Shown here: piece by piece, positions 6,460 to 34,352 of the stretch | Position numbering within the stretch: the first letter of the stretch is position 1 | Layout of the letters: the number at the start of each line of letters is the position of its first letter | The notes under the pieces: model-generated | Told to the model about the DNA's origin: nothing | Databases searched by the model: none | The model's input: only the letters and a program-made list of their open reading frames with translations | Made by a program: the position numbers and the translations under genes | NCBI RefSeq assembly: GCF_014635725.1 | Contig: NZ_BMDJ01000001.1 | Coordinates: 620,001-684,000, forward strand | From: Pedobacter mendelii | GTDB taxonomy: Bacteria; Bacteroidota; Bacteroidia; Sphingobacteriales; Sphingobacteriaceae | Direction: 5' to 3' | Length of the DNA: 64,000 bases

Positions 6460-6575
6460 AATAATTTAGGTTTAATTTCCTGAAGTTCTTTATTCAAACA
6501 CAATGCCAAAAATTCTTGTGAACATATTTTAAGTTAAATAGCCATCAATAGAGCTAAAAAGAATATTCTTGGAGC

Positions 6576-21446: not shown

Positions 21447-24062
21447 TTAAGATTCCAGTTCCCTATCCAAATGCTCTGTAACTCTTTGAATGGTATTATC
21501 TATAGTATTACTTAAAATGGTTAGATAAGAACCTTTTTTGGCATGGTCAATTGCGATTTGTAAACACTCCGTACTCTTGTTATTGATAATAATTTCCTTG
21601 TTCGGATCAACCTCTTTAATACCTTTTACCAACAAATCTATTAATTCATCTTGAGTACGTCCGCGTAAATATTTTTCCTGGCAGATGTAAATTTTATCAA
21701 ACATTTGTGCAGAAATTCTAGCCGTTTCCATAATATCCTCGTCACGTCTATCTCCTGTTCCCGAAATAATACCAACATGTTCAGTTGCTTCCACGCTGTG
21801 CAAATACGCTTTAACACCATTAAAGCCATCAGGATTGTGCGCAAAATCTACCAACACTTTAAAATCTTTAAATCTAAAAATATTCATCCTACCGGGAGTA
21901 TGTGCTGCCGATGGAATAAAGGTTTCGAGCGATAAACGAATATCATCTGTTTTATAACCCCACAAATATGCCGCTAGCGTTGCTGCTAAAACATTCTGAA
22001 TCATGAAATTTACTGAACCACCAAAAGTCAACGGTACGTGGGTTGCTTTATCAACACGTAATTTCCAATCGCCTGTTTTAATCGTTATGTAGCCATTCTC
22101 ATAAATTGCTGCAATACCACCTTTTTTGCAATGCTCTTTAATAACCGGATTGTTCTCATCCATACTAAAATAAGCAACATTACAACGGGCATCTCTGGCT
22201 ATTTTAACACAATAACCATTATCAGCATTTAAAACAGCCCAGCCTTTACGCCTAACCGCACCAATTACTACTGCTTTTACACGTGCTAAATCATCAAGAT
22301 TATGAATATCTGATATACCTAAATGGTCTTCCTGAATGTTAGTGATAACACCAATATCACACTGGTTGAATCCTAAACCTGCCCTTAAAATTCCACCACG
22401 GGCGGTTTCTAATACAGCAAATTCAACCGTTGGGTCTTTTAAAATAAACTCTGCACTAACAGGCCCCGTAGTATCGCCTTTCATCAACATTGTGTTGTGA
22501 ACGTAAACGCCATCAGAAGTTGTAAAGCCAACTCGTTTACCATTACTACGAATAATGTGGGCAATTAAACGGGTTGTTGTAGTTTTTCCATTTGTACCTG
22601 TAACCGCAATTATCGGAATTTGGGATAATTTTCCCTGTGGATAAAGCATATCGATAACCGATGCAGCAACGTTTCTTGGCAAGCCTTCGCTTGGAGCAAG
22701 GTGCATCCTAAAACCAGGTGCTGCATTTACTTCTAATACAACGCCTCCATTTTCAGTTAATGGTTGAGTTAAGTTCTGCGCCATAATATCAATACCGCAA
22801 ATGTCCAATCCGATAACTCTCGAAATTCGTTCGCAAATAAAAATATTTTGTGGATGAACAATATCGGTTACATCAATGGATGTTCCGCCAGTGCTTAAAT
22901 TTGCAGTAGATTTTAGATACACTATCTCTCCCTTTTCAGGAATCGTTTCTAAAGTATATTCTTTTTTTGCAAGTAAATCTAAAGTATCTCTGTCAACCGA
23001 AATTTCTGTTAAAACGTTTTCATGGCCATAACCGCGACGAGGATCTTCATTCTCCTTATCAATTAATTCTTGGATGGTATGAATGCCGTTACCTTTAACA
23101 TGTGCAGGATCACGTTGTGCAGCTGCAACAACTTTATGGTCAATAACCAAAATACGGAAATCAAAGCCTGTTATAAATTTCTCGATAATTACCTTGCGAG
23201 AATAGGTTTTGGCATATTCAAATGCTGCTTTTGCAGCCTCTAATGTTTTTACATTTATAGTTGCACCCTTACCGTGGTTACCATCTAAAGGTTTAAAAAC
23301 CAAAGGAAAGCCAACTTTTTTAACAGATGCTTCTAAATCATCTGGATTGGATATGGTTACACCAGATGCTACAGGAATTGCTGCTTCGGTTAATAAACGT
23401 TTAGTTTCTTCTTTATTACTGGCAATATCAACTGCAATACTACTTGTTTTCTCAGTCATGGTAGCTCTAAAACGAACCTGGTTTTTGCCATAACCCAGCT
23501 GCACCAAAGAACTTTTATTTAACCTAATCCAAGGTATGCTTCTGCTTACAGCTTCCTGAACAATAGAACCTGTACTTGGCCCTAATGCTTCCAACTCACG
23601 AATTTCCTTCATCCGTCGGATATCGTGATCTAAATCATATTCTTCATTATCAATCAAAGCCTGCGCTATTTTTACCGATGCTTCAGCAGCATAAACACCA
23701 ACTTTTTCTTCTAAATAACTAAATACTACATTATATATGCCATCAGTTTTAGTTTGGCGTGTACGGCCAAAACCGGTTTCCATACCAGCAATGGTTTGAA
23801 TTTCTAAAGCGATATGCTCAATAACATGGCCCATCCATGTGCCTTCTTTTACGCGGGTAAAAAAGCCTCCTTCAACACCTTTGGAACAGCGGTGACTAAA
23901 CATGCTTGGCAAAAGCTTTTCTATTCTTTCGCTAAATCCTTCGATCGTATTTGTTGGTCTTTGCTCTAATTCTTCTAAATCAAGTCGCATTTGAATTAGT
24001 TTTTTGCGATTGATAGACCATATATTTGGCCCTCTTAATACTTGTATGTTTGATATCTTCAT
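21447..24062 (-). CDS. cphA: cyanophycin synthetase
   Basis: An 871-residue enzyme that polymerises L-aspartate and L-arginine into cyanophycin using ATP. Domain order is complete: an N-terminal domain (about 1-160) with GTWMGHVIEHIALEIQ, an ATP-grasp domain (about 215-475) with the glycine-rich loop KPLDGNHGKG, and a Mur-ligase-like domain (from about 490) with the P-loop VTGTNGKTTTT and a C-terminal part including GVISGTGDRRDEDI. The length is the family norm. It is transcribed away from the cyanophycinase gene across a 293-bp divergent spacer. The product should be an insoluble nitrogen reserve in the cytoplasm. Confidence 0.93.
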   Translation of the reverse strand: MKISNIQVLRGPNIWSINRKKLIQMRLDLEELEQRPTNTIEGFSERIEKLLPSMFSHRCSKGVEGGFFTRVKEGTWMGHVIEHIALEIQTIAGMETGFGRTRQTKTDGIYNVVFSYLEEKVGVYAAEASVKIAQALIDNEEYDLDHDIRRMKEIRELEALGPSTGSIVQEAVSRSIPWIRLNKSSLVQLGYGKNQVRFRATMTEKTSSIAVDIASNKEETKRLLTEAAIPVASGVTISNPDDLEASVKKVGFPLVFKPLDGNHGKGATINVKTLEAAKAAFEYAKTYSRKVIIEKFITGFDFRILVIDHKVVAAAQRDPAHVKGNGIHTIQELIDKENEDPRRGYGHENVLTEISVDRDTLDLLAKKEYTLETIPEKGEIVYLKSTANLSTGGTSIDVTDIVHPQNIFICERISRVIGLDICGIDIMAQNLTQPLTENGGVVLEVNAAPGFRMHLAPSEGLPRNVAASVIDMLYPQGKLSQIPIIAVTGTNGKTTTTRLIAHIIRSNGKRVGFTTSDGVYVHNTMLMKGDTTGPVSAEFILKDPTVEFAVLETARGGILRAGLGFNQCDIGVITNIQEDHLGISDIHNLDDLARVKAVVIGAVRRKGWAVLNADNGYCVKIARDARCNVAYFSMDENNPVIKEHCKKGGIAAIYENGYITIKTGDWKLRVDKATHVPLTFGGSVNFMIQNVLAATLAAYLWGYKTDDIRLSLETFIPSAAHTPGRMNIFRFKDFKVLVDFAHNPDGFNGVKAYLHSVEATEHVGIISGTGDRRDEDIMETARISAQMFDKIYICQEKYLRGRTQDELIDLLVKGIKEVDPNKEIIINNKSTECLQIAIDHAKKGSYLTILSNTIDNTIQRVTEHLDRELES

Positions 24063-24316
24063 GTAATATTTTGTAGTTTTTTGTTAAACAAGGGTTTGGG
24101 ATAGCTTATTTAATTCAATTCGAGATTGTAAAATTGATGATTGTAAAATATGAATTTATTTTTAAAATTGTTGCTGCATTTACCTAAATCAATTTTTTGG
24201 TACAATTGTTTTATTTTCAGCGCAAAACAACTTATTTTTTATATAATTAATTTTAACGTTTGTTAATAAAGTGAATATTATTGACAAAAAAAGTCGTAAT
24301 TTTTATCTTATCCTGA

Positions 24317-24324
24317 TATATTTG
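24317..24324 (+). promoter_or_regulatory. -7 element of the cyanophycinase promoter
   Basis: TATATTTG matches TAnnTTTG and lies 31 bp before the cyanophycinase ATG. The divergent spacer (24063-24355) otherwise holds only AT-rich sequence. Confidence 0.55.
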
Positions 24325-24355
24325 GGTTTTTCGATACAATAATAATACACAAAGA

Positions 24356-25231
24356 ATGGTTCCGAAGGGTAAACTCATCATCATAGGTGGCGCAATAAAC
24401 ACAGGTAGCTTTGCAGAAACACAGTTCGGATTACCCGAAAACATGAATTTCTTTGAGCGTGGAATTTTAAAAAGAATTACTACCGAATCAATTAAAGATA
24501 TAGAATCACGTTTCGAAATCATTACAACGGCTTCACTTATGCCTGAAAAAGTTGGTGAAGAATATATTAAAGCTTACGCCCAATTAGATGTTCATAATGT
24601 TGGTGTGTTAAATATAACCAACCGCGAAGAAGCAAATAGCGAAGAAAATTCTGAACGTATAAAAGCTGCAGATGTAATCGTTTTTACCGGAGGCGACCAA
24701 TTGCGTTTATCTTCCATTTTCGGAGGAACTAAAATTCATCAAATTCTTTTAGATAAATATAAAAATGAACCTGTAGTTATAGCTGGGACTTCTGCAGGTG
24801 CCGCTGCAAGCTCAAAAAATATGATTTATCAGGGAAGCAGTAAAGATGCGTTATTAAAAGGTGAAGTTAAAATTACAGGCGGATTAGGTTTTATTGATGA
24901 TGTTATTGTTGATACACACTTTGTTCAACGTGGAAGAATTGGCCGTTTGTTGTATGCTGCAGCAAGTAATCCTGGTATTTTAGGTATTGGTTTAGGCGAA
25001 GATACAGGTCTTTTTATTTCTGACGGCCATGTTATGGAGGCCATTGGTTCGGGTATGGTAATACTTGTTGATGGACGCCAAATGGCAGATACAAATTTAA
25101 CCGATGTGGAAATGGGCCAACCTGTATCAATAAAAAATATGGTTGTACATGTAATGTGCGATGGAGATGTGTACGATTTAACAGATCATAGTTTGGTTAT
25201 TCATCACCCAAAAGTTGTTCCTATAGGATAG
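24356..25231 (+). CDS. cphB: cyanophycinase
   Basis: A 291-residue serine peptidase of family S51 that cuts cyanophycin into beta-aspartyl-arginine dipeptides. The nucleophile elbow GTSAGAAASS is near residue 144. The family His lies in VDTHFVQRGRIGRL, and a Glu in GLGEDTGLF completes the expected set. There is no signal peptide, so it is the intracellular form that mobilises stored polymer. The gene is divergent from cyanophycin synthetase and 137 bp upstream of an isoaspartyl peptidase gene. Confidence 0.93.
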   Translation: MVPKGKLIIIGGAINTGSFAETQFGLPENMNFFERGILKRITTESIKDIESRFEIITTASLMPEKVGEEYIKAYAQLDVHNVGVLNITNREEANSEENSERIKAADVIVFTGGDQLRLSSIFGGTKIHQILLDKYKNEPVVIAGTSAGAAASSKNMIYQGSSKDALLKGEVKITGGLGFIDDVIVDTHFVQRGRIGRLLYAAASNPGILGIGLGEDTGLFISDGHVMEAIGSGMVILVDGRQMADTNLTDVEMGQPVSIKNMVVHVMCDGDVYDLTDHSLVIHHPKVVPIG

Positions 25232-25249
25232 AAGGTTATATTGCTTAAT

Positions 25250-25360
25250 CTTGATACTTACTACTAGATACTTGATACTAAATACTTACTACTAGATACT
25301 AAAATCTTACTGCTTAATACTTGATTTTAATTACTTGATACTCGCTATTAAATCTCGATA
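25250..25360. repeat. degenerate short repeats (ATACTTGATACTAAAT-like)
   Basis: The 18-bp block ATACTTACTACTAGATAC occurs at 25254-25271 and 25282-25299 (period 28 bp), amid many TACTTGATACT and GCTTAATACTTGA variants. It fills the spacer between cyanophycinase and the isoaspartyl peptidase. Confidence 0.75.
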
Positions 25361-25368
25361 CTTACAAA

Positions 25369-26211
25369 ATGAAACTAATTATACATGGTGGCTTTTTCAG
25401 CGAGTCATCTACCAATCAGGAAACTAAAAAAGCTAAGCAAGATGCTTTATCCCAGATAGTTACGTTTGGTTACGAATATTTAAAAAGCCACACAGCCTTA
25501 GAAACTGTGGTTTATACCGTTTCCTTGCTGGAAGATAATGATTTATTTAATGCAGGAATTGGCTCTCAAATTCAGAGTGATGGAAAAGTTCGTTTAAGCG
25601 CATCACTAATGGATGGTAAAACAGAAAAGTTTAGTGGCGTAATAAATATTGAGGATGTTAAAAATCCGGTTGAAATTGCTAAAAATCTTTTAAACTATGA
25701 TGACCGGGTTTTAAGCGGCGAGGGTGCACAGCTTTTCGCAAGAAATAAAGGATTTGAATATTTTAATCCGATAACCAAACAACGTCAATCAGAATACGAG
25801 GCAAAATTAAACCAGCAAAATAATAAAGGTACCGTTGGATGTGTTGCTTTAGATGATAGTGGCAATTTAGCTGCAGCCACTTCAACAGGCGGAAAAGGTT
25901 TTGAAATTCCTTGTCGCGTTAGCGATTCTGCTACTGTTGCTGGCAATTACGCAAATCAATACGCTGGCATCTCTTGCACAGGCGTTGGTGAAGATATTGT
26001 AAGTGGTGCTTTGGCGGCTAAAATTGTAACCAGAGTTACAGATGGTTTTACCTTAAAAGCAGCTACTGATAAATCATTCGCAGAACTTAAATCTTTCGAT
26101 GGCTTTGCCGGAGTTGTAGGAATTAGTGCGGAAGGTGAAATTTATCATTGCGATTCGCATCCTTACATGGTTTGGGCATCTTTTGATCTTAATTTACAGG
26201 TATTTAGCTAA
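25369..26211 (+). CDS. isoaspartyl peptidase / plant-type L-asparaginase
   Basis: A 280-residue Ntn-hydrolase that is autocleaved before a Thr. The cleavage motif is NNKGTVGCVALD, with Thr in GTVG as nucleophile. The substrate-binding GGKGFEIPCRVSDSATVAGN and the C-terminal GAL stretch are also family features. It is shorter than E. coli IaaA (about 320). Enzymes of this group split beta-aspartyl dipeptides, including beta-Asp-Arg from cyanophycinase, and asparagine. Its position directly behind cyanophycinase suggests it finishes cyanophycin breakdown. There is no export signal. Confidence 0.9.
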   Translation: MKLIIHGGFFSESSTNQETKKAKQDALSQIVTFGYEYLKSHTALETVVYTVSLLEDNDLFNAGIGSQIQSDGKVRLSASLMDGKTEKFSGVINIEDVKNPVEIAKNLLNYDDRVLSGEGAQLFARNKGFEYFNPITKQRQSEYEAKLNQQNNKGTVGCVALDDSGNLAAATSTGGKGFEIPCRVSDSATVAGNYANQYAGISCTGVGEDIVSGALAAKIVTRVTDGFTLKAATDKSFAELKSFDGFAGVVGISAEGEIYHCDSHPYMVWASFDLNLQVFS

Positions 26212-26228
26212 AAATTCATTTAAAGTAT

Positions 26229-26236
26229 TATTTTTG
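26229..26236 (+). promoter_or_regulatory. -7 element before the TPR gene
   Basis: TATTTTTG ends 4 bp before the ATG at 26241, so the transcript is leaderless, or translation begins at the in-frame ATG at 26250. Confidence 0.55.
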
Positions 26237-26240
26237 TTGC

Positions 26241-26921
26241 ATGACTAAAATGGTTCTGGCTCTTTTTTGCCTTTTTGCCTCTCTACAACTTTACGCTCAA
26301 AATATAGATAAAGCCGACCAAGAACCTGGGTTTGGTGGAAGTGCAATTAATATTGCGGTTTCTAAATACGATCTTGCCGAAGGAACCAATTACTTTGAAG
26401 ATGCTCAAAGCCTTGAAAAGAAAGGTGATTTTAATGAAGCATTAACCCTATTTGGCAAAGCAGCTTTTGAATTTAATGCCGTAAAAAACTTTAATCTGTA
26501 TTGCCAGGCACTTATAAAAATGAGCAATATGCATTATCAACTCGGGCGTTTTATGGATGCTGAACAAATTTTGCTTAATGTGGTGCTTAAAAATTATTCT
26601 AAAATGGGCAGTCGCGTAGGGCAAATGAATACTTACAACATTTTAGGAAAGGTTTATCTGGCTGATAGTAAATACACACAATCTATGTGGTTTTATACTC
26701 AACAGGGTATTTTAGCCAAACAACTTAGAAGTAATAGTTCTTTTATCGAATCGGTATTAGGGCTTGCGCAAGTAAAAATCAGGAAGAAGGATTTTACGCT
26801 GGCATCAAAAGATTTAAAGCAGGCGGAGCTTTTAGCCAATGCCATAAAAAGTTCTCAATATAAATCTCAAATAAAAGATGCCCGCGAAATGATTGCATCT
26901 AAAACAACTCCTAAAAAATAA
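26241..26921 (+). CDS. secreted TPR-repeat protein
   Basis: A 226-residue protein with a signal peptide ending near LYAQ (residues about 4-20) and then about four TPR-like helical hairpins, for example EALTLFGKAAFEFNAVKNF and ALIKMSNMHYQLGRFMDAEQ. TPR domains bind other proteins, so it is probably a periplasmic adaptor. The partner is unknown. It is 29 bp after the isoaspartyl peptidase gene but has its own promoter-like element. Confidence 0.75.
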   Translation: MTKMVLALFCLFASLQLYAQNIDKADQEPGFGGSAINIAVSKYDLAEGTNYFEDAQSLEKKGDFNEALTLFGKAAFEFNAVKNFNLYCQALIKMSNMHYQLGRFMDAEQILLNVVLKNYSKMGSRVGQMNTYNILGKVYLADSKYTQSMWFYTQQGILAKQLRSNSSFIESVLGLAQVKIRKKDFTLASKDLKQAELLANAIKSSQYKSQIKDAREMIASKTTPKK

Positions 26922-26950
26922 CCTTTTGCTTTAAGAATGCATTTATTAGG

Positions 26951-26967
26951 ATGCCTGTCAGGCATCA
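26951..26967 (+). terminator. short hairpin terminator after the TPR gene
   Basis: GATGCCTGTCAGGCATC forms a GC-rich stem with a tiny loop and is followed by ATTATTTC. The T-run is weak. The larger spacer 26922-27240 also contains the promoter and leader of the downstream protease gene. Confidence 0.5.
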
Positions 26968-27123
26968 TTATTTCAGCAGAAAATTAGGATTCTCTAATAA
27001 CTGACATCTATAATTATATAATTTCTTCACAATAAACACAAATGTTAATTTTTGTTAAAATATATTACGCCTAAAGGCCTGATATTAAAACAAAAAGTGC
27101 TGTGTTGGGTTGTTTTATAGCAA

Positions 27124-27154
27124 TTGACAAATAAAAACCTTTTAGTTAGATTTG
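27124..27154 (+). promoter_or_regulatory. promoter of the tail-specific protease gene
   Basis: TTG (27124-27126) lies 20 bp upstream of TAGATTTG (27147-27154), a good -33/-7 pair. It is expected to start RNA near 27158, about 80 nt before the ATG. Confidence 0.55.
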
Positions 27155-27162
27155 AACCATTT

Positions 27163-27194
27163 AACAAGAGACGGTAATAATGCTGTCTCTTGTT
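27163..27194 (+). other. terminator-like hairpin in the leader of the protease gene
   Basis: AACAAGAGAC (27163-27172) pairs perfectly with GTCTCTTGTT (27185-27194) across a 12-nt loop, followed by a T-rich tract (TGTTTATTTG). It lies only a few bases after the predicted transcription start and 46 bp before the ATG, so it could attenuate or stabilise the message. Confidence 0.6.
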
Positions 27195-27210
27195 TGTTTA
27201 TTTGATAAAA

Positions 27211-27226
27211 TGGTATCATATTGGCT
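27211..27226 (+). promoter_or_regulatory. possible sigma-54 promoter before the protease gene
   Basis: TGGTATCATATTGGCT has GG and GC exactly 10 bp apart, as in TGGCACG-N4-TTGCW, but with several mismatches in the -24 half. Transcription would begin about 5 bp before the ATG. Confidence 0.25.
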
Positions 27227-27240
27227 ATATAGAATTAGAA

Positions 27241-29430
27241 ATGGATTTTAAATTATTTAAAGAGATGTTGAAGAGAATATTTTTTGTACTTTTTACAGCC
27301 GCAGTGCTAGCTTGCCATGCCGCTCCAAAAACTCAACCTGTTGTTGAAGGCGTTACAAATGTAAAGCCAGATGAACAACAGCAGTTGGTTATTAAAGAAG
27401 TTGTTAATCTTATCGAGAGCTATAACTATAAAAAACTGGAAATCAATGATTCTATATCTTCTATAATTTTAGATAAATACATAAAATCATTAGATCAAGG
27501 TAAAAACTACTTTCTAGCATCTGATATTAAAGAATTTGAAAAATATAGGTTTACACTTGATGATGATTTTAAAAATGGCGATTTAAGCGGTCCGTTTTAT
27601 ATCTACAATGTGTACGCTAAACGCTTAAACGAGTATTTCAACTACTCTTTAGCTCAGATAAAAACTAAATTCGATTTCAACCAAAACGATACTTACACTT
27701 ACGACAGAGAAAAAATGCCTTGGGCTGCATCAAGCACCGCATTAAATGAAACCTGGAAAAAACGTGTTAAATACGAACTGGTAAATTTAAACTTAGCAGG
27801 AACCGCACAGGCAAAAAATGTAGAAACGTTAACCAAACGTTATCAAAATTTGCAATCGCAAACGTCAAAAACTAATAATCAAGATGTATTTCAAATTTTG
27901 ATGGATGCTTTTACAGAATCTATTGACCCACATACAAATTACTTCAATCCGGTAAATGCAGTAGCTTTTAACGAAGATATGTCTCGCTCATTTGAGGGTA
28001 TTGGTGCCAGATTACAATTAGAAAATGAAGTAGTTAAGATTTCGGAAATTATAGCCGGCGGACCAGCTTTTAAAGATAAACAATTAACTCCAGGCGATAG
28101 AATTATTGCAGTTGCTCAAGGCGACGCTGAATTTGTTGATGTTGTAGGCTGGAGATTAGATGCTACCGTATCAAAAATTAAAGGTGCCAAAGGAACCAAA
28201 GTCCGTTTAAAAGTAATTCCTGCCGGCAAAGAAATGTCTTCTAAACCTGTCATTATCTCTCTAGTACGGGATAAAGTAATTTTAGAAGAAACTTCAGCTA
28301 AAAAAATGGTAAAAACCATTAATATGAATGGTAAAAGCTATAAGATGGGTGTAATTACTTTACCTGCATTTTATGCTGATTTTAAAGCTGCAAACGCAGG
28401 CGATAAGAACTACAAAAGCACAACACGTGACGTAAGAAAACTTATCGATTCTTTAAAAACTTTTGATAAGGTTGATGGAATTGTTATGGATTTACGTGGT
28501 AATGGTGGTGGTTCTTTAGTTGAAGCAATTTCATTAACTGGTTTATTTATTGATAAAGGCCCAGTTGTTCAGGTAAAAGATTTACGCAACAAAATTGAGG
28601 TTGATGAGGATGAAAATACAGGTGTAGCTTGGGATGGTCCTTTTGGTGTGATGGTTGATCGTTTAAGTGCTTCTGCCTCTGAAATTTTTGCAGGTGCGAT
28701 TCAGGATTATGGTCGCGGTATTATTATGGGTAGCCAAACTTATGGCAAAGGAACAGTTCAATCATCAATCGATTTAAATAAACTGGTAAACCCAAGTATG
28801 CTTCAAAGAATGGCAGGATTAATTACAAAAAACAAAACAACATTAACTTCACCAACTAATGTAACCGCTGCAGATATTAATCTAGGTCAGATAAACCTTA
28901 CAATGGCTAAATTCTACCGCGTTGCCGGAAGTAGCACCCAACATAAAGGTGTAACGCCCGATGTTATTCTCCCATCTTTATATCCAATGGATAAAATTGG
29001 AGAAGATACAGAGCCATCGGCATTACCTTGGGATGTGATTCCAAGTTCGAATTTTAAAGCAGTAGCAAATTTAACAGCTGTTAAGCCTAACCTGATAAAA
29101 AATAGCGAACAACGTATTGCCAACTCCTTAGATTTTAAATATTTAAAACAAGATTTTGCAGAAATGAAAAAACGCGATGCCGAGGTTTCAGTAACATTAA
29201 ATGAAGCTAAACTTAAAGCAGAACGCGAGGCACAGGAGGTAAAGAGTCTTGCCAGGATTAATGAGTTAAGAGCAGCAAGAGGTTTACCCGCAATTAAAAA
29301 AGGAGAAAAGCCAACAAAACAAGATGCATTCGACTTTATTGAAGATGAATCATTACATGTAATGGGCGATTTTATGCAGCAATCGGGTAACTATGTTATG
29401 AATCTTGGTTTAATGCCAAAGAACAATTAA
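27241..29430 (+). CDS. carboxy-terminal processing (tail-specific) protease, Prc type
   Basis: A family S41A protease of about 730 residues that trims or degrades envelope proteins. It starts with a signal and lipobox (TAAVLAC). An N-terminal Tsp-type helical domain is followed by a PDZ domain (GIGARLQLENEVVKISEI onwards) and the protease core with Ser in RLSASASEIFAGAI and Lys in GSQTYGKGTVQS. The C-terminal DUF3340-like region has KRDAEVSVTLNEAKLKAER. The ATG at 27241 is chosen; the longer TTG start at 27190 falls inside the leader hairpin. Translation from 27265 is also possible. Confidence 0.92.
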   Translation: MDFKLFKEMLKRIFFVLFTAAVLACHAAPKTQPVVEGVTNVKPDEQQQLVIKEVVNLIESYNYKKLEINDSISSIILDKYIKSLDQGKNYFLASDIKEFEKYRFTLDDDFKNGDLSGPFYIYNVYAKRLNEYFNYSLAQIKTKFDFNQNDTYTYDREKMPWAASSTALNETWKKRVKYELVNLNLAGTAQAKNVETLTKRYQNLQSQTSKTNNQDVFQILMDAFTESIDPHTNYFNPVNAVAFNEDMSRSFEGIGARLQLENEVVKISEIIAGGPAFKDKQLTPGDRIIAVAQGDAEFVDVVGWRLDATVSKIKGAKGTKVRLKVIPAGKEMSSKPVIISLVRDKVILEETSAKKMVKTINMNGKSYKMGVITLPAFYADFKAANAGDKNYKSTTRDVRKLIDSLKTFDKVDGIVMDLRGNGGGSLVEAISLTGLFIDKGPVVQVKDLRNKIEVDEDENTGVAWDGPFGVMVDRLSASASEIFAGAIQDYGRGIIMGSQTYGKGTVQSSIDLNKLVNPSMLQRMAGLITKNKTTLTSPTNVTAADINLGQINLTMAKFYRVAGSSTQHKGVTPDVILPSLYPMDKIGEDTEPSALPWDVIPSSNFKAVANLTAVKPNLIKNSEQRIANSLDFKYLKQDFAEMKKRDAEVSVTLNEAKLKAEREAQEVKSLARINELRAARGLPAIKKGEKPTKQDAFDFIEDESLHVMGDFMQQSGNYVMNLGLMPKNN

Positions 29431-29447
29431 TAAGAATTTTAATCAGT

Positions 29448-29486
29448 AAAAAGCCTGCTAAAATTAAAATTTTAGCAGGCTTTTTT
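29448..29486 (+). terminator. intrinsic terminator, bidirectional
   Basis: A long stem (AGCCTGCTAAAATT with its complement) is flanked by an A-run and a T-run (TTTTTT). It ends the protease gene and may also serve the convergent SPFH gene. Confidence 0.85.
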
Positions 29487-29562
29487 GATCCATGGTAAAA
29501 CATACGAAGTCAAACAGGCTAAGAGCAGAGGAGACTTCGTAAGTTTAGATGAAGCGCCAAAC

Positions 29563-30504
29563 CTATTTCGCTTGCTGTCCAGGTTGGTTTTGTCTGTTTA
29601 ACTGCATAGCCATCATTTCTTTCATGGTTTTATTCATGCCTTCAGTACTTCCATCCAAGAAAATAATGTTGCCTTCGCCATATTCAGCAAATTGCTTAAT
29701 TGCTTCGGTCCACATCGTGAAAAGAATTACTGAAGTATCTAAATTGGCTTGTTGCATTTCATGAGCAGCATTTGTCATACCCTTTGCAACTTCCTCTCTA
29801 AACAAAGCAATACCTTGTCCACGTAATTGAGCGGCTTCACGTTCGGCCATTGCCGCTATTTTAATTGCATTACCATCAGCCTCTGCACCTTTTGTTTTTG
29901 TAATCAATAAAGCTTGTCCTTCATTTTCTGCCGCAGCTTTTAAATTATTTGATGCTACCACGCGGCTCATAGATCGCATAATTTCTTCATCAAAAGTTAT
30001 ATCATTCAACTGCAAATCTTGCAAATGATAACCCCAGCCATCTAAAACCTGATCGATTTGTTCCTTTACATGGAGAACAATCTCATTACGCTGCGCTAAA
30101 ACATTTGCTTGTTTCTGCGTTGCAACATACGCTCGAATAGAACCTTCTATGGTTCTTATTAATGCTTGCATTAAGTTCGTTGCATCAACAAATTTAAAGG
30201 CTACGTTTTTAATGGTTTCTTCATCCTGATTAACTACAGAATATAAAAGCATTGCCTTAAAATAAACATTTGCCTGATCTTGTGTTACTGCCTGAAAAGA
30301 CAATTCTACTGAACGATTTTGAATAGAAATACGTGAATAAATCTGCTCAATTAGTGGGATTTTAAAATTTAAGCCTGGTCGTAACTGCCGTTGGTATTTT
30401 CCAAAAACCGTAATAACAGCTATTGTACCTTGCTTAACAGTAACAAAAGAACTTAAAAGGATGATGATCCCAAAGAAAACTAGAATGTAAATTATGTATT
30501 GCAT
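29563..30504 (-). CDS. SPFH/Band 7 (stomatin-like) membrane protein
   Basis: A 313-residue protein with one N-terminal membrane segment (residues about 2-20), then the Band 7 domain beginning TVKQGTIAVITVFGKYQ, with PGLNFKIPLIEQIYSRI and RIEGSIRAYVA-like segments. An Ala/Glu-rich helical stretch (AAAENEGQALLITKTKGAEADG) follows. Such proteins form large oligomeric scaffolds in membrane microdomains. It ends in a Gln-rich tail. No NfeD or FtsH gene is adjacent, so it belongs to the stand-alone stomatin-like set. Confidence 0.85.
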   Translation of the reverse strand: MQYIIYILVFFGIIILLSSFVTVKQGTIAVITVFGKYQRQLRPGLNFKIPLIEQIYSRISIQNRSVELSFQAVTQDQANVYFKAMLLYSVVNQDEETIKNVAFKFVDATNLMQALIRTIEGSIRAYVATQKQANVLAQRNEIVLHVKEQIDQVLDGWGYHLQDLQLNDITFDEEIMRSMSRVVASNNLKAAAENEGQALLITKTKGAEADGNAIKIAAMAEREAAQLRGQGIALFREEVAKGMTNAAHEMQQANLDTSVILFTMWTEAIKQFAEYGEGNIIFLDGSTEGMNKTMKEMMAMQLNRQNQPGQQAK

Positions 30505-30594
30505 CTTTTTAGATTTTTTATGAAGTTATAAAAAATTCATACAAACTACATCATGCTTTTCGTAGCTTTAATTTTCTTAACTAATTACAACCCC

Positions 30595-32637
30595 ATGAAA
30601 AGAAAATTATTTCTGCCAGCGGCAGCATTATTGTTACTTGCCGCCTGCCAGAACGATAAAAATCATCAAGCAGCAGAAGCAGATCAAAGAACTGTATTTT
30701 TTGATGCAGTCGGTATGGACACAACCATAAAGCCCGGCGATAATTTTTTCCTGTACGCCAACGGAAAATGGATGAAAAATACGCAAATCCCCAAAACCGA
30801 AACTGGTTGGGGTTCATTTTATATGCTTTACAATGATAATATTAAAAACCTAAGGAGCATTTTAGAACACGCAGCTAAGAGTAGCGTAAGCAAAGGGAGC
30901 GCAGAGCAAAAAGTTGGAGATTTTTACGCAAGTGGAATGGACTCTGTAACGATTGAAAAGTTAGGAATAGAGCCTATTAAACCCTTATTATCAAAAATTG
31001 ATGCCATTAAAAATGATAAAGATTTAATCAATTTTATTGCGGAAGGATTTAAAGATGGCGAAGGCGATTTATTAGGTTTTGGTATCGAACCAGATGATAA
31101 AATGAGTTCAAAAAATGCTTTGGTTTTCTCTCAATCGGGAATAAATTTACCTGAACGTAGTTACTATTTAGATAAAGATGAAAAAGCAAAAAAAATCAGA
31201 ACAGAATATGTAAAATACATCAATAAAATATTTAGTCTTGCAGGCGATTCACTAAATGCCGCTAAATATGCTGATGATATTTTGAAGTTAGAAACAGCAA
31301 TTGCAGAATCTCATTCAACTCCTGTAGAACTTCGCGACCCGCAAAAAAACTATAATAAGTTTGCTGTTGCAGATTTTCAAAAACAAATGCCAAACATCGA
31401 TTTTAAATCTGTTTTAAGCAAACTTGGGGCAAATACTGATACAGTCATCGTACGTCAACCGAAATATTACCAGGAATTATCTAGTTTATTAAAGAATCAG
31501 CCGATTAACGTTTGGAAGGAAAAACTAAAATTCGACGCATTAAATACTTCTTCTAATTCACTTACAAAAGCTTTCAGAACAGCAAGATTTGATTTCTTTG
31601 GTAAAACGCTTTACGGTCAGCCATCGCAAACAGAAAGATGGAAAGCAATGGTGAGCAATACTGATAGAAATCTTGGTGATCTTTTAGGCCAGTTATATGC
31701 CGAACAATATTTTAAGCCTGAAGCCAAAAAACGTATGCTTGAATTGGTTAATAACCTTCAAAAAGTTTATGAAGGCAGGATTAAAAAAGTTGACTGGATG
31801 ACTCCTGAAACGAAGAAAAAAGCATTAGAGAAATTAAATGCTTTTGTTAAGAAAATCGGTTATCCTGATAAATGGAAAAAATATGATGATGTAGAAATTT
31901 CTAAAAACACTTATTACGCAAATCTTCAATCGGCTAAAAAGCACGATTATAAAGAGATGATGGATAAGTTAGGTAAACCTGTTGATAAAACCGAATGGGG
32001 AATGACACCACCAACTGTAAATGCTTATTACAATCCTTCGTTTAATGAAATTGTATTTCCTGCCGGAATCTTGCAGTTTCCTTTCTTCGCCTTTAATGCC
32101 GATGATGCGATTAATTATGGCGGTATTGGTGCGGTTATTGGACACGAGATGACTCACGGTTTTGATGATCAAGGTCGCCAGTACGATGCAGCAGGTAATT
32201 TAAAAGAATGGTGGACAAAAGATGATGCTGCTAAATTTAAAACCAAAGCCGATAAAGTGGTTGCATTTTACAATAACTTCTCTTTATTAGATAATCAGCA
32301 TGTAAATGGCGCACTAACATTAGGCGAAAACTTGGCCGACATTGGTGGATTAAATATTGCTTATGATGCATTTAAACTTACTGAACAAGGCAAAGGAGAT
32401 AAAAAGATTGACGGTTTTACACCCGACCAACGTTTCTTTTTAAGCTTTGCACAGGTATGGAGAGTGAAAAACCGCGATGAAAGCATGCGTGTTCGTTTAA
32501 AAACAGATCCACATAGCCCTGAAATGTTTCGTGTAAATGGTCCTGTTTATAACATGGAAGCTTTCTATAAAGCCTTTAACATACCAGCAACCGCAAAAAT
32601 GTATGTTGTACCGGCCAATAGACTAGGGGTTTGGTAA
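30595..32637 (+). CDS. M13-family zinc metallopeptidase, lipoprotein
   Basis: A neprilysin-like peptidase of about 680 residues. The ATG at 30595 gives a textbook lipoprotein signal (MKRKLFLPAAALLLLAAC); the longer frame from 30553 is less likely. The zinc motif HEMTH is in GAVIGHEMTHGFDDQG, and the Glu ligand is in GENLADIGG. The final VYNMEAFYKAFN and the region with CxxW-like end are family features (no terminal CxxW is seen, as in many bacterial homologues). It should degrade oligopeptides in the periplasm or at the cell surface. Confidence 0.92.
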   Translation: MKRKLFLPAAALLLLAACQNDKNHQAAEADQRTVFFDAVGMDTTIKPGDNFFLYANGKWMKNTQIPKTETGWGSFYMLYNDNIKNLRSILEHAAKSSVSKGSAEQKVGDFYASGMDSVTIEKLGIEPIKPLLSKIDAIKNDKDLINFIAEGFKDGEGDLLGFGIEPDDKMSSKNALVFSQSGINLPERSYYLDKDEKAKKIRTEYVKYINKIFSLAGDSLNAAKYADDILKLETAIAESHSTPVELRDPQKNYNKFAVADFQKQMPNIDFKSVLSKLGANTDTVIVRQPKYYQELSSLLKNQPINVWKEKLKFDALNTSSNSLTKAFRTARFDFFGKTLYGQPSQTERWKAMVSNTDRNLGDLLGQLYAEQYFKPEAKKRMLELVNNLQKVYEGRIKKVDWMTPETKKKALEKLNAFVKKIGYPDKWKKYDDVEISKNTYYANLQSAKKHDYKEMMDKLGKPVDKTEWGMTPPTVNAYYNPSFNEIVFPAGILQFPFFAFNADDAINYGGIGAVIGHEMTHGFDDQGRQYDAAGNLKEWWTKDDAAKFKTKADKVVAFYNNFSLLDNQHVNGALTLGENLADIGGLNIAYDAFKLTEQGKGDKKIDGFTPDQRFFLSFAQVWRVKNRDESMRVRLKTDPHSPEMFRVNGPVYNMEAFYKAFNIPATAKMYVVPANRLGVW

Positions 32638-32663
32638 AAGATTAGTTTAATTAGTTCAATTTA

Positions 32664-32713
32664 AAGCCACAGATTACCAGATTTTAAATCTGTTAATCTG
32701 TGGCTTATTTTTT
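32664..32713 (+). terminator. intrinsic terminator of the M13 peptidase gene
   Basis: AAGCCACAGATTA pairs perfectly with TAATCTGTGGCTT (17-nt loop) and is followed by ATTTTTTTT. The loop itself carries a second inverted repeat, AGATTT/AAATCT. Confidence 0.85.
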
Positions 32714-32788
32714 TGATTAGCTTATCTTTTTATTCAAATGAAAACAAAAATCAAAAATTATTGTCTTTACTCTGATAATTTTAAAACT

Positions 32789-32974
32789 ATGAACGTAAAA
32801 CGCACTTTTGGAACGGTCCTGACTATTTTAGGTATAATTGGATTAGTTTATGCCGGTTATGGTTTCGTTAACCATAGCCAGAATAGTAGAGGATTGTTAG
32901 TTTATGGTATAATTGGATTGATATTCTTTGTTTCTGGAATTGGTTTGGTAAAGAATACTAAGGATGAGGTGTAA
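32789..32974 (+). CDS. small two-helix membrane protein
   Basis: The ATG at 32789 gives 61 residues (start MNVKRTFGTVLTIL) with two hydrophobic segments (about 8-24 and 36-53) joined by a short loop with NHSQNSRG. It resembles small DUF3185-like membrane proteins, but this is a guess from size and shape. A frame extension back to 32738 adds an unlikely polar N terminus. The gene follows the M13 terminator and has a second small membrane protein gene convergent with it. Confidence 0.6.
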   Translation: MNVKRTFGTVLTILGIIGLVYAGYGFVNHSQNSRGLLVYGIIGLIFFVSGIGLVKNTKDEV

Positions 32975-33040
32975 TTTTAGCTACCAGCCTATCTATTTTA
33001 ACAAATACTACTTAGTTTCTTCTTGTGGGATAAACATATA

Positions 33041-33220
33041 TTATTTTTTATTTCTTCTAATTATCAAATACTGGCTAAAAGCAACCAGCGAACCTGCCAA
33101 AATTATTATTCCGGCAGAAACTATATTCTTTGGGTTTTGATTGATGTAGTAAGCTGCCGCTAAAACTAAAATTGCTGCTGCAATACCAACGATATAGTGA
33201 AGAGTTAATCCTGTTTTCAT
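33041..33220 (-). CDS. small two-helix membrane protein, 59 aa
   Basis: A short frame reads ATG at 33220 to TAA at 33041. The product begins MKTGLTLHYIVGIAAAIL and ends FSQYLIIRRNKK. It has two hydrophobic segments (about 8-24 and 35-52) with a short loop (NQNPKN) and a basic tail, matching the layout of the 61-residue protein on the other strand. The coding use looks real: Ala, Ile and Leu codons are frequent and there is no internal stop. No database match was made. Confidence 0.6.
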   Translation of the reverse strand: MKTGLTLHYIVGIAAAILVLAAAYYINQNPKNIVSAGIIILAGSLVAFSQYLIIRRNKK

Positions 33221-33254
33221 GTTTTGAGGGTTGAGGTTAAGGTCGAGATTGAGA

Positions 33255-34352
33255 TTATGGCTGAGCTGTTATCCTATTATTTTCGAATTCAAGTTTGTGC
33301 CCAACAAAGTCTTCATCTGTTAATTGTTTAATTCTTTTGAATGCGGTATGATTTTCATCCACTGTTAATCTGCTTATTTTTTCTTGCTTAACCGAAATTA
33401 CATCAGCATATAAAAAATCGCCCTTGCCATTAACTTTAACTTGAAACAGTGGGGCAAAACCATTGTTTCCCTTTAAGCTAAACATGCCATAGGTACAAAA
33501 ATTCCCCATGCTGTAAGCAATAAATTTATTTTTGTAAACTTCCACAGCACGGCTTACATGGGGGCCATGACCTAAAACGATATCCGCCCCAGCATCAATA
33601 ACTGCATGTGCAAAAGCATAAACATTCCCCCGGTTTTCGTTATAGAATATTTCATTTTTGCGTGTTACATGTTCAAATCTTGCACCTTCACCTCCACCAT
33701 GAAAGGAAACAATAACAATATCTGCCATCTTTTTTAATCTGCTAACTAATGCTTTGGCACTATCAATTTTATTAATTGAAACGGTATTTTCATTCGGGGC
33801 AAAAGCACAAAAAGCATATTTTATACTATCTTTCTCAAATACATCGAAAGGTTTATTTAATTGGCCTGCATAGTGAATTTGTAAGGAATCTAAAATTCGG
33901 ACTGTATTCTTCCTTCCTTTAGCATCAAAATCACCAACATGATTATTGGCAATGCTCATAACATTGAAGCCTGCCTTTTTATAAATTCCAGCGTAGCGTT
34001 CTGGCATCCGGAAAGCGTAGCAGTTGTTTGGGTTGATGCCATTACATTTTGTAGAGTTTCCGGAGTTCAAAAAACAGCCCTCTAAATTGCCAAAAACGAT
34101 ATCTCCTTTCAATAAACTATCAACCGCTGCGAAACTATTTACCGCATCATCTGAAGGAAGATTACTCGCAGATGGAAATGCCGAACCGAGCATCATATCT
34201 CCAACGGCTGTTATCGAAATTGTATCCTTAATCTTTCTAAGAATAGTATCTACCTTCATACCATTAACTACTTCCTGAGCGCTATTGCTGGTGCAGCTAA
34301 TAAATATAATTAAAAAGAAGAATGGCAAAATTATGCTATTGGCTAATTTCAT
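33255..34352 (-). CDS. CapA-family lipoprotein (metallophosphatase fold)
   Basis: A 365-residue protein with a lipobox (IIFISC) near residues 15-20. The CapA domain shows GDMMLGS, NLEGCFL, SIANNHVGDFDAKG, SFHGGGE and GHGPHV, the calcineurin-like motif series of the PGA_cap/PgsA family. CapA is best known from poly-gamma-glutamate export in Bacillus. In Bacteroidota such homologues are usually alone, as here, and the role is unclear. Metal-dependent hydrolysis at the cell surface is a reasonable guess. It follows the NlpC/P60 gene on the same strand, past a terminator. Confidence 0.87.
   Translation of the reverse strand: MKLANSIILPFFFLIIFISCTSNSAQEVVNGMKVDTILRKIKDTISITAVGDMMLGSAFPSASNLPSDDAVNSFAAVDSLLKGDIVFGNLEGCFLNSGNSTKCNGINPNNCYAFRMPERYAGIYKKAGFNVMSIANNHVGDFDAKGRKNTVRILDSLQIHYAGQLNKPFDVFEKDSIKYAFCAFAPNENTVSINKIDSAKALVSRLKKMADIVIVSFHGGGEGARFEHVTRKNEIFYNENRGNVYAFAHAVIDAGADIVLGHGPHVSRAVEVYKNKFIAYSMGNFCTYGMFSLKGNNGFAPLFQVKVNGKGDFLYADVISVKQEKISRLTVDENHTAFKRIKQLTDEDFVGHKLEFENNRITAQP

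Follow-up and report, generated by a model that had tools for sequence, protein, structure and literature searches.

The tail-specific protease gene (tsp) in the Pedobacter mendelii window, the whole 64,000-nt stretch of DNA that was analysed, is preceded by a leader with a defined anatomy: a promoter-like sequence, a hairpin running into a T-rich tract, and a strongly conserved block close to the start codon. The leader is conserved among relatives, and its stem has undergone compensatory changes. We read it as a two-part control leader in which an ordinary promoter (P1) and a promoter-proximal terminator are followed by a degenerate sigma-54-type promoter (P2) abutting tsp, a reading made from sequence to which we give a probability of roughly 0.45. 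Within it, P1 activity, termination, sigma-54 recognition and a stress signal are what we infer, in the following scheme. A housekeeping-type P1 would start RNA at ~27158, a few bases before the stem-loop, which would fold at once and, together with the U-rich tail behind it, would form an intrinsic terminator close to the promoter, serving as attenuator or insulator. The bulk of P1 RNA would stop at ~27197-27202 as a product of ~40 nt, and only readthrough would reach tsp and provide basal expression. About 20 bp further on, near the start codon, would lie another control element, for which a degenerate promoter of sigma-54 type (P2) is the likeliest candidate. It would give a hairpin-free tsp mRNA when proteins or the envelope are under stress, and the terminator would shield P2 from transcription arriving from upstream. 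If this is true, a periplasmic quality-control protease would be controlled by premature termination and a stress-type promoter in Pedobacter's family. The features concerned are as follows.

26241-26921, plus strand: TPR gene (Pfam TPR matches below the cut-off)
26950-26966, plus strand: separate terminator-like hairpin just past the TPR gene
27124-27154, plus strand: P1, ordinary Bacteroidota-type promoter predicted from sequence, TTG (-33) and TAGATTTG (-7)
27163-27194, plus strand: hairpin with 14 pairs and a 4-nt loop (~16 pairs in relatives)
27190-27204, plus strand: T-rich tract, a terminator-like tail that overlaps and follows the 3' arm of the hairpin
27209-27226, plus strand: block of highest conservation, AATGGTATCATATTGGCT, and candidate for the sigma-54-type promoter P2
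27241-29430, plus strand: tsp, tail-specific protease gene, 729 aa
27265-27267, plus strand: second in-frame ATG, where translation of RNA starting at ~27237 might begin

The gap between the TPR gene and tsp measures 319 nt and holds P1, the hairpin, the T-rich tract and the block. Tsp, which we take to belong to COG0793, carries TSP_NTD, PDZ, Peptidase_S41 and DUF3340 domains (protein scanned from 27265) and, judging from VLAC in its signal peptide, is probably a lipoprotein; the nearest named locus among those listed, where records very close to our own may be left out, is tsp of Pedobacter jejuensis, with 98% protein identity. ATG 27241 (MDFKLFKEMLKR...) is the most probable start codon: the alignments of 79 of the 80 listed homologues begin at residue 1, and by eye the first codons vary at their third positions as coding sequence would. 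On the same grounds TTG 27190, the start given by the automatic ORF call, is less likely.

The leader alignment comprised 79 leaders, 72 of them distinct (80 named loci minus the truncated L166 and L205, plus our own); the Pedobacter set includes one Nubsella as well as MAGs with names at family or order level only (L137, L198, L205, L207). Fixed criteria were tallied over 70 distinct Pedobacter-set leaders, paralogues included, and over 39 leaders of other genera, taken from 121 family genomes as one to four chosen genomes per genus in 19 genera. An ATG followed by Leu/Phe-Lys-like codons was found near the place equivalent to 27265 in 36 of these 39. A 201-bp query matched 60 of 60 genus genomes, our own included, some matches being partial or at contig ends. 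An order-level search gave matches only within Pedobacter's own family, and two more distant homologues (L093 and L094) showed no such leader by eye.

Identity to our own leader was scored segment by segment over 68 rows (L200, L202 and L207 left out), made up of 32 close relatives (at least 85% protein identity), 32 distant ones (<75%) and four between. Fourfold-site identity was 0.41 in close and 0.36 in distant relatives. The corresponding values were 0.45 and 0.32 upstream (27116-27123), 0.87 and 0.43 in P1, 0.55 and 0.36 in the spacer 27155-27162, 0.95 and 0.77 in the hairpin, 0.83 and 0.80 in the T-tract plus spacer (27195-27206), 0.99 and 0.85 in the block, and 0.92 and 0.40 between the block and the ATG. 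The synonymous sites of tsp are less conserved than the leader, which has no above-threshold match in Rfam 15, where 26900-27400 gave nothing above the gathering score (SurA, 16.7 bits with a cut-off of 100, on the minus strand; DdR18, 16.6 with a cut-off of 80).

The preliminary description had placed a -33/-7 promoter at 27124-27154, and both elements are present: TTG starts at 27124, the -7 box TAGATTTG occupies 27147-27154, and 20 nt separate the two. P1 resembles in this the sigma-ABfr housekeeping promoter of Bacteroidota, whose consensus is TAnnTTTG/TTTG according to the parts of PMC7366714 consulted; it differs in having a terminator-like hairpin within 10 nt. Its RNA is predicted to start at ~27158-27160. 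A simple scan of 22000-34000 counted 46 promoter-like sites (45.1 expected) and 7 terminator-like sites (8.2 expected), so that neither element is significant by itself. Among 68 distinct leaders, a count without L200 and L202, 52 have a strict TAnnTTTG whose end lies 10-15 nt ahead of the stem core, and 11 have only TAnnTTT (7 at 5 nt and 4 at 14 nt from the stem core). Five (L188, L189, L195, L197, L201) have neither form of the box and still carry a hairpin-like stem, imperfect in some. Since box-less leaders and paralogues have the hairpin and the block, the hairpin also occurs without P1. By a stricter joint criterion, a strict -7 box precedes the hairpin in 36/70 Pedobacter-set leaders (shuffled mean 0.1) and in 5/39 of other genera (shuffled 0.0); outside Pedobacter the strict box precedes the stem by 12-14 nt in L217, L218, L238, L240 and L242, from three genera.

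Within 1.264 Mb of our own genome, 165 terminator-like hairpins lie outside ORFs, and a strict TAnnTTTG ends 0-20 nt upstream of 2 of them, one being that of tsp. About 4.1 would be expected from the box density outside ORFs, and control intervals further upstream gave 1 to 4. A promoter followed by a hairpin is uncommon and not enriched in this single genome; the tsp hairpin stands above chance because it is conserved among relatives. That the pairing of box and hairpin does not exceed chance in one genome fits the best-surviving alternative, which we nevertheless consider rather unlikely: the hairpin would serve only as an insulator, ending readthrough from the TPR gene or elsewhere and protecting the tsp-adjacent element, with P1 incidental or minor. 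Such a role would also suit L169, L189 and L197, in which the gene in the TPR position ends immediately ahead of the hairpin, ~94-104 nt from the tsp ATG, and two of which have no recognisable -7 box; it would suit the paralogues L200 and L202 too, where a different stem directly follows another ORF. However, an incidental P1 would not be expected to keep its -7 box at so nearly fixed a distance from the stem, as it does in 52 of 68 leaders and, outside Pedobacter, in five leaders belonging to three genera. Moreover, the TPR gene here has its own hairpin at 26950-26966, which is nearer, so the tsp hairpin is not its nearest terminator-like site.

Where a perfect 10-bp hairpin had been described right after the promoter, AACAAGAGACGGT-AATA-ATGCTGTCTCTTGTT forms ten consecutive Watson-Crick pairs and then G.T, G-C, T.G and A-T, at a gap of 8 nt from the -7 box. 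The T-rich tract recorded earlier between hairpin and start codon is likewise there, as TTGTTTGTTTATTTG at 27190-27204 with the ATG at 27241. The leader of 105 nt folds at -26.1 kcal/mol, compared with -14.3 ± 2.8 for shuffled sequences (z -4.21; 0/200 as good). Our own T-rich tract is interrupted by G and is weaker than that of most relatives, so that termination may be weak here; in relatives it is mostly TTTTTTGTTTTTTT, TTTTTTGTTTATTT or TTTTCTGTTTATTT, and by eye it persists even where the opposite arm offers it no pairing.

Stem covariation was counted in 58 distinct rows from 65 of the 79 leaders, a set that omits the paralogues L200 and L202, exact duplicates (L136, L139, L142, L151, L161, L186, L199) and close relatives of kept rows (L128, L157, L164, L192, L204). 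In the 16-pair stem, 86.7% of cells were paired (42-58% in slid controls), 30 cells had changed on both sides (10.4 ± 2.4 shuffled; 0/500) and the covariation score reached 0.180 (0.128 shuffled; 0/500), all three measures being inflated by relatedness among rows. The number of pairs with change on both sides (5 vs 3.4; 54/500 shuffles as high) and of further stem pair types (16 vs 14.4; 64/500) was not significant. Compensatory changes include GAGAC/GTCTC to GATAC/GTATC and, in the lower stem, A-T to G-C, which breaks the T-run. Leaders differ in loop length and in part of their stem sequence, and the varying loop length together with the compensatory changes favours an RNA hairpin over a spaced DNA operator. 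A hairpin plus T-run by the fixed criterion was found in 45/70 Pedobacter-set and 14/39 other-genus leaders (shuffled means 0.3 and 0.3).

As in an intrinsic terminator or attenuator, the stem-loop and U-rich tract separate a promoter from a coding gene, the stem is stable, contains GC and stands directly before the U-rich tract, and its pairing is conserved through compensatory change; the terminator reading is moderately supported. Unlike attenuators, the tsp leader showed, by eye and in a single fold, neither a leader peptide nor an alternative structure acting as antiterminator, and its stem starts ~5-10 nt into the predicted RNA. The near-constant spacing from -7 box to stem, the compensatory changes and the retention of the T-tract beyond pairing support a structured, terminator-like 5' end on P1 transcripts. 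Of the roles proposed earlier for the hairpin, namely an attenuator, a stabilising 5' structure or the end of a tiny RNA, attenuation is plausible and the tiny RNA survives mainly as the terminated product; a trans-acting small RNA looks unlikely in view of the sequence variation in the loop and in part of the stem.

Hairpin plus T-run followed by the block motif [TA]GGYAY-N5-TNG occurred in that order in 43/70 Pedobacter-set and 8/39 other-genus leaders (shuffled 0.0 and 0.0). The motif by itself was present in 66/70 and 16/39, respectively (shuffled 0.7 and 0.5). Genera g1, g30, g33, g40, g41 and g43 have the hairpin, the T-run and a GGYAY block with 20-23 nt between, a spacing obtained by manual arithmetic that allows for different anchor letters (L240 was measured by hand); in this comparison, 26/109 leaders gave no T-run/GG pair and the pairs of g26 and g35 look spurious. 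The near-constant spacing between stem and block in six genera suggests some coupling. Other gaps occur in g34 and g38, and the gap is 42 nt in the paralogues; L162 has kept P1 and the hairpin and lost the block, and of the genera lacking the full leader some have the hairpin without the block and some neither. That a two-stage switch, with a constitutive promoter stopped almost at birth and a stress-type element downstream, has been kept as a unit across several genera is possible, if doubtful. Second tsp-like copies exist in some species (L200, L202, L083-L085, L089). In the paralogous copies the hairpin followed by the GG block is kept just after an upstream ORF, with a different, GGGACAAAC-type stem and a spacer ~21 nt longer.

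The near-constant distance between hairpin and block in six genera would also be expected if a single P1 mRNA carried a stabilising 5' stem-loop and the block were an element of its untranslated region, binding a protein or the ribosome, and no promoter. The stem-loop does lie at the extreme predicted 5' end, and the block is close to the ATG and fits the sigma-54 matrix poorly. We judge this second alternative unlikely, however: the U-rich tract is conserved beyond the needs of pairing, which stabilisation does not require, some leaders without a recognisable P1 retain hairpin and block, and the paralogues retain the block after a changed 42-nt spacer.

The block at 27209-27226, absent from the preliminary description, is the most conserved part of the leader. 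Under the two-promoter reading it would be P2, with GG at 27212-27213 in TGGTAT-N5-TGGCT and an RNA start at ~27237. Its variation, TGG[TC]A[TC] and then T/G/A and G, resembles a -24/-12 element. It shares with the sigma-54-type promoters of Pedobacter dnaK and clpB the GG at -25/-24, A at -22, a pyrimidine at -21, the five-base spacer and G at -13, as well as its place before a protein quality-control gene and, like clpB, next to the ATG; it differs from them in having T for C at -23 and G or A for T at -14. On a matrix built from dnaK and clpB the block scores 1.1 of 23.1, and it is the best matrix site in only 11/70 leaders, the matrix preferring other sites in most Pedobacter leaders. The mean best score was 3.9 in leaders and 2.9 in reversed leaders, whose maximum was 13.6. 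In genus g34, AGGCAC-N5-TTGAT stands at a similar place with matrix scores of 11.6-13.8 (a second site in L223 scores 10.8 and its reversed leader 9.5), and genus g42 has TGGCAC-N5-TAGAT (10.8). By position and by analogy with g34, sigma-54 recognition of the Pedobacter tsp block is plausible; the case is weaker than that for the terminator, since dnaK and clpB do have motifs of this kind, and on the matrix built from them the tsp block has a low score. In L224-L226 of g34, the only ATG upstream of the conserved in-frame tsp codons lies by eye inside GGCAC-N5-TTGATG, a position at odds with RNA starting 24 nt past the GG unless translation begins at a different codon.

Other explanations of the block were considered. 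A 15-mer of the block is not enriched in the genome, with 194 matches within 3 mismatches and 204 in the backward control, which speaks against a genome-wide repeat or a regulon site. Thirty of the 194 matches were examined; of the 29 other than tsp, 27 fall within open stretches of 330 nt or more, and L105 and L122 may be intergenic. The same lack of enrichment and placement in open stretches, together with a second half-site that is by eye not kept in other genera, make it quite improbable that the block, near-perfectly conserved as it is and with an 11-bp repeat step visible by eye in Pedobacter (direct repeat ATTGG-N6-ATTRG), is the operator of a dedicated DNA-binding regulator acting as a roadblock on P1. 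A conserved upstream peptide through the block looks improbable by eye, as frame and stops differ among leaders, a possible MVSYW reading being interrupted by TAG or frame-shifted. Also rejected was the block as a -7 box (TAnnTTTG) with its -33 element in the T-tract, since by eye other genera retain neither the A at position 2 nor the TTTG.

The sigma-54-type motif was followed at dnaK and clpB loci from 30 genomes (G021 gave no match). Upstream of dnaK, TTGGCAC-N5-TTGTT is invariant in 29/29 Pedobacter loci read (L330-L358), our own included, where it lies at ~103960-103974 of C1 on the minus strand. Upstream of clpB, [TC]GGCAY-N5-TTG was present in 28/29 loci (L360-L388) and in 26/29 by a stricter pattern, L388 lacking the motif and being counted among the 29; weak second matches (L359, L389) were not used. 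The clpB site of our own genome lies at C3 ~219036-219065. The clpB motif adjoins the ATG, placing the RNA start only 1-2 bases before it (~4 bases in tsp). The clpB mRNA would be almost leaderless, and a second conserved block, GACAAAATTTCCGAT, lies upstream. In our own genome, TTGGCAY-N5-TTG outside ORFs precedes dnaK, lon, an OmpA-like lipoprotein gene and five other small exported-looking genes; NCBIfam and Pfam, applied to whole proteins or N-terminal pieces, confirmed dnaK, lon, the OmpA-like lipoprotein and clpB, the identity of the five small genes being our own reading. This pattern is not enriched genome-wide (22 sites, 21 in the backward control; 21 of the 22 examined). On the sense strand of 694 upstream regions, TGGYAY-N5-TNG occurred 10 times (2 reversed, 3 antisense, 4.6 shuffled), a modest excess, with four of the ten sites in or at coding starts. 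The sites point to a quality-control set of dnaK, clpB, lon and possibly tsp with sigma-54-type promoters in Pedobacter. The presence or absence of rpoN was uninformative as a test, the gene being present in our own genome and nearly universal (120/121 family and 59/60 genus genomes).

In the parts of PMC12316311 consulted, predicted sigma-54 promoters in Bacteroidota are enriched before DnaK, GroEL/ES, GrpE, DnaJ and IbpA and before the proteases COG0542, COG0466 and COG1066; COG0793 is absent from its main text. As reported in the consulted text of PMC12282069, tsp of Chlamydia is a sigma-28 target, which offers a precedent for special sigma control of tsp, by a different factor. In the literature searched, within the texts consulted, no description of the tsp leader was found, which is no proof that it is unpublished, nor was any paper combining tail-specific protease and Pedobacter.

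Some further observations concern the sigma-54 context. rpoN is kept in family genomes of only 1.7-2.2 Mb (G087, G090, G101, G107, G109), and a sixth small genome, G121 (1.8 Mb, 95% complete), gave no rpoN match. Many dnaK leaders have a conserved CTGCCAA upstream that forms an inverted repeat with TTGGCA. Within the window itself, TTGGCATTGTGTTTG lies at 6495-6509 on the minus strand, ~50 nt before the gene of the 225-aa OmpA-like lipoprotein, which NCBIfam assigns to the YiaD-type glycine zipper/OmpA proteins.
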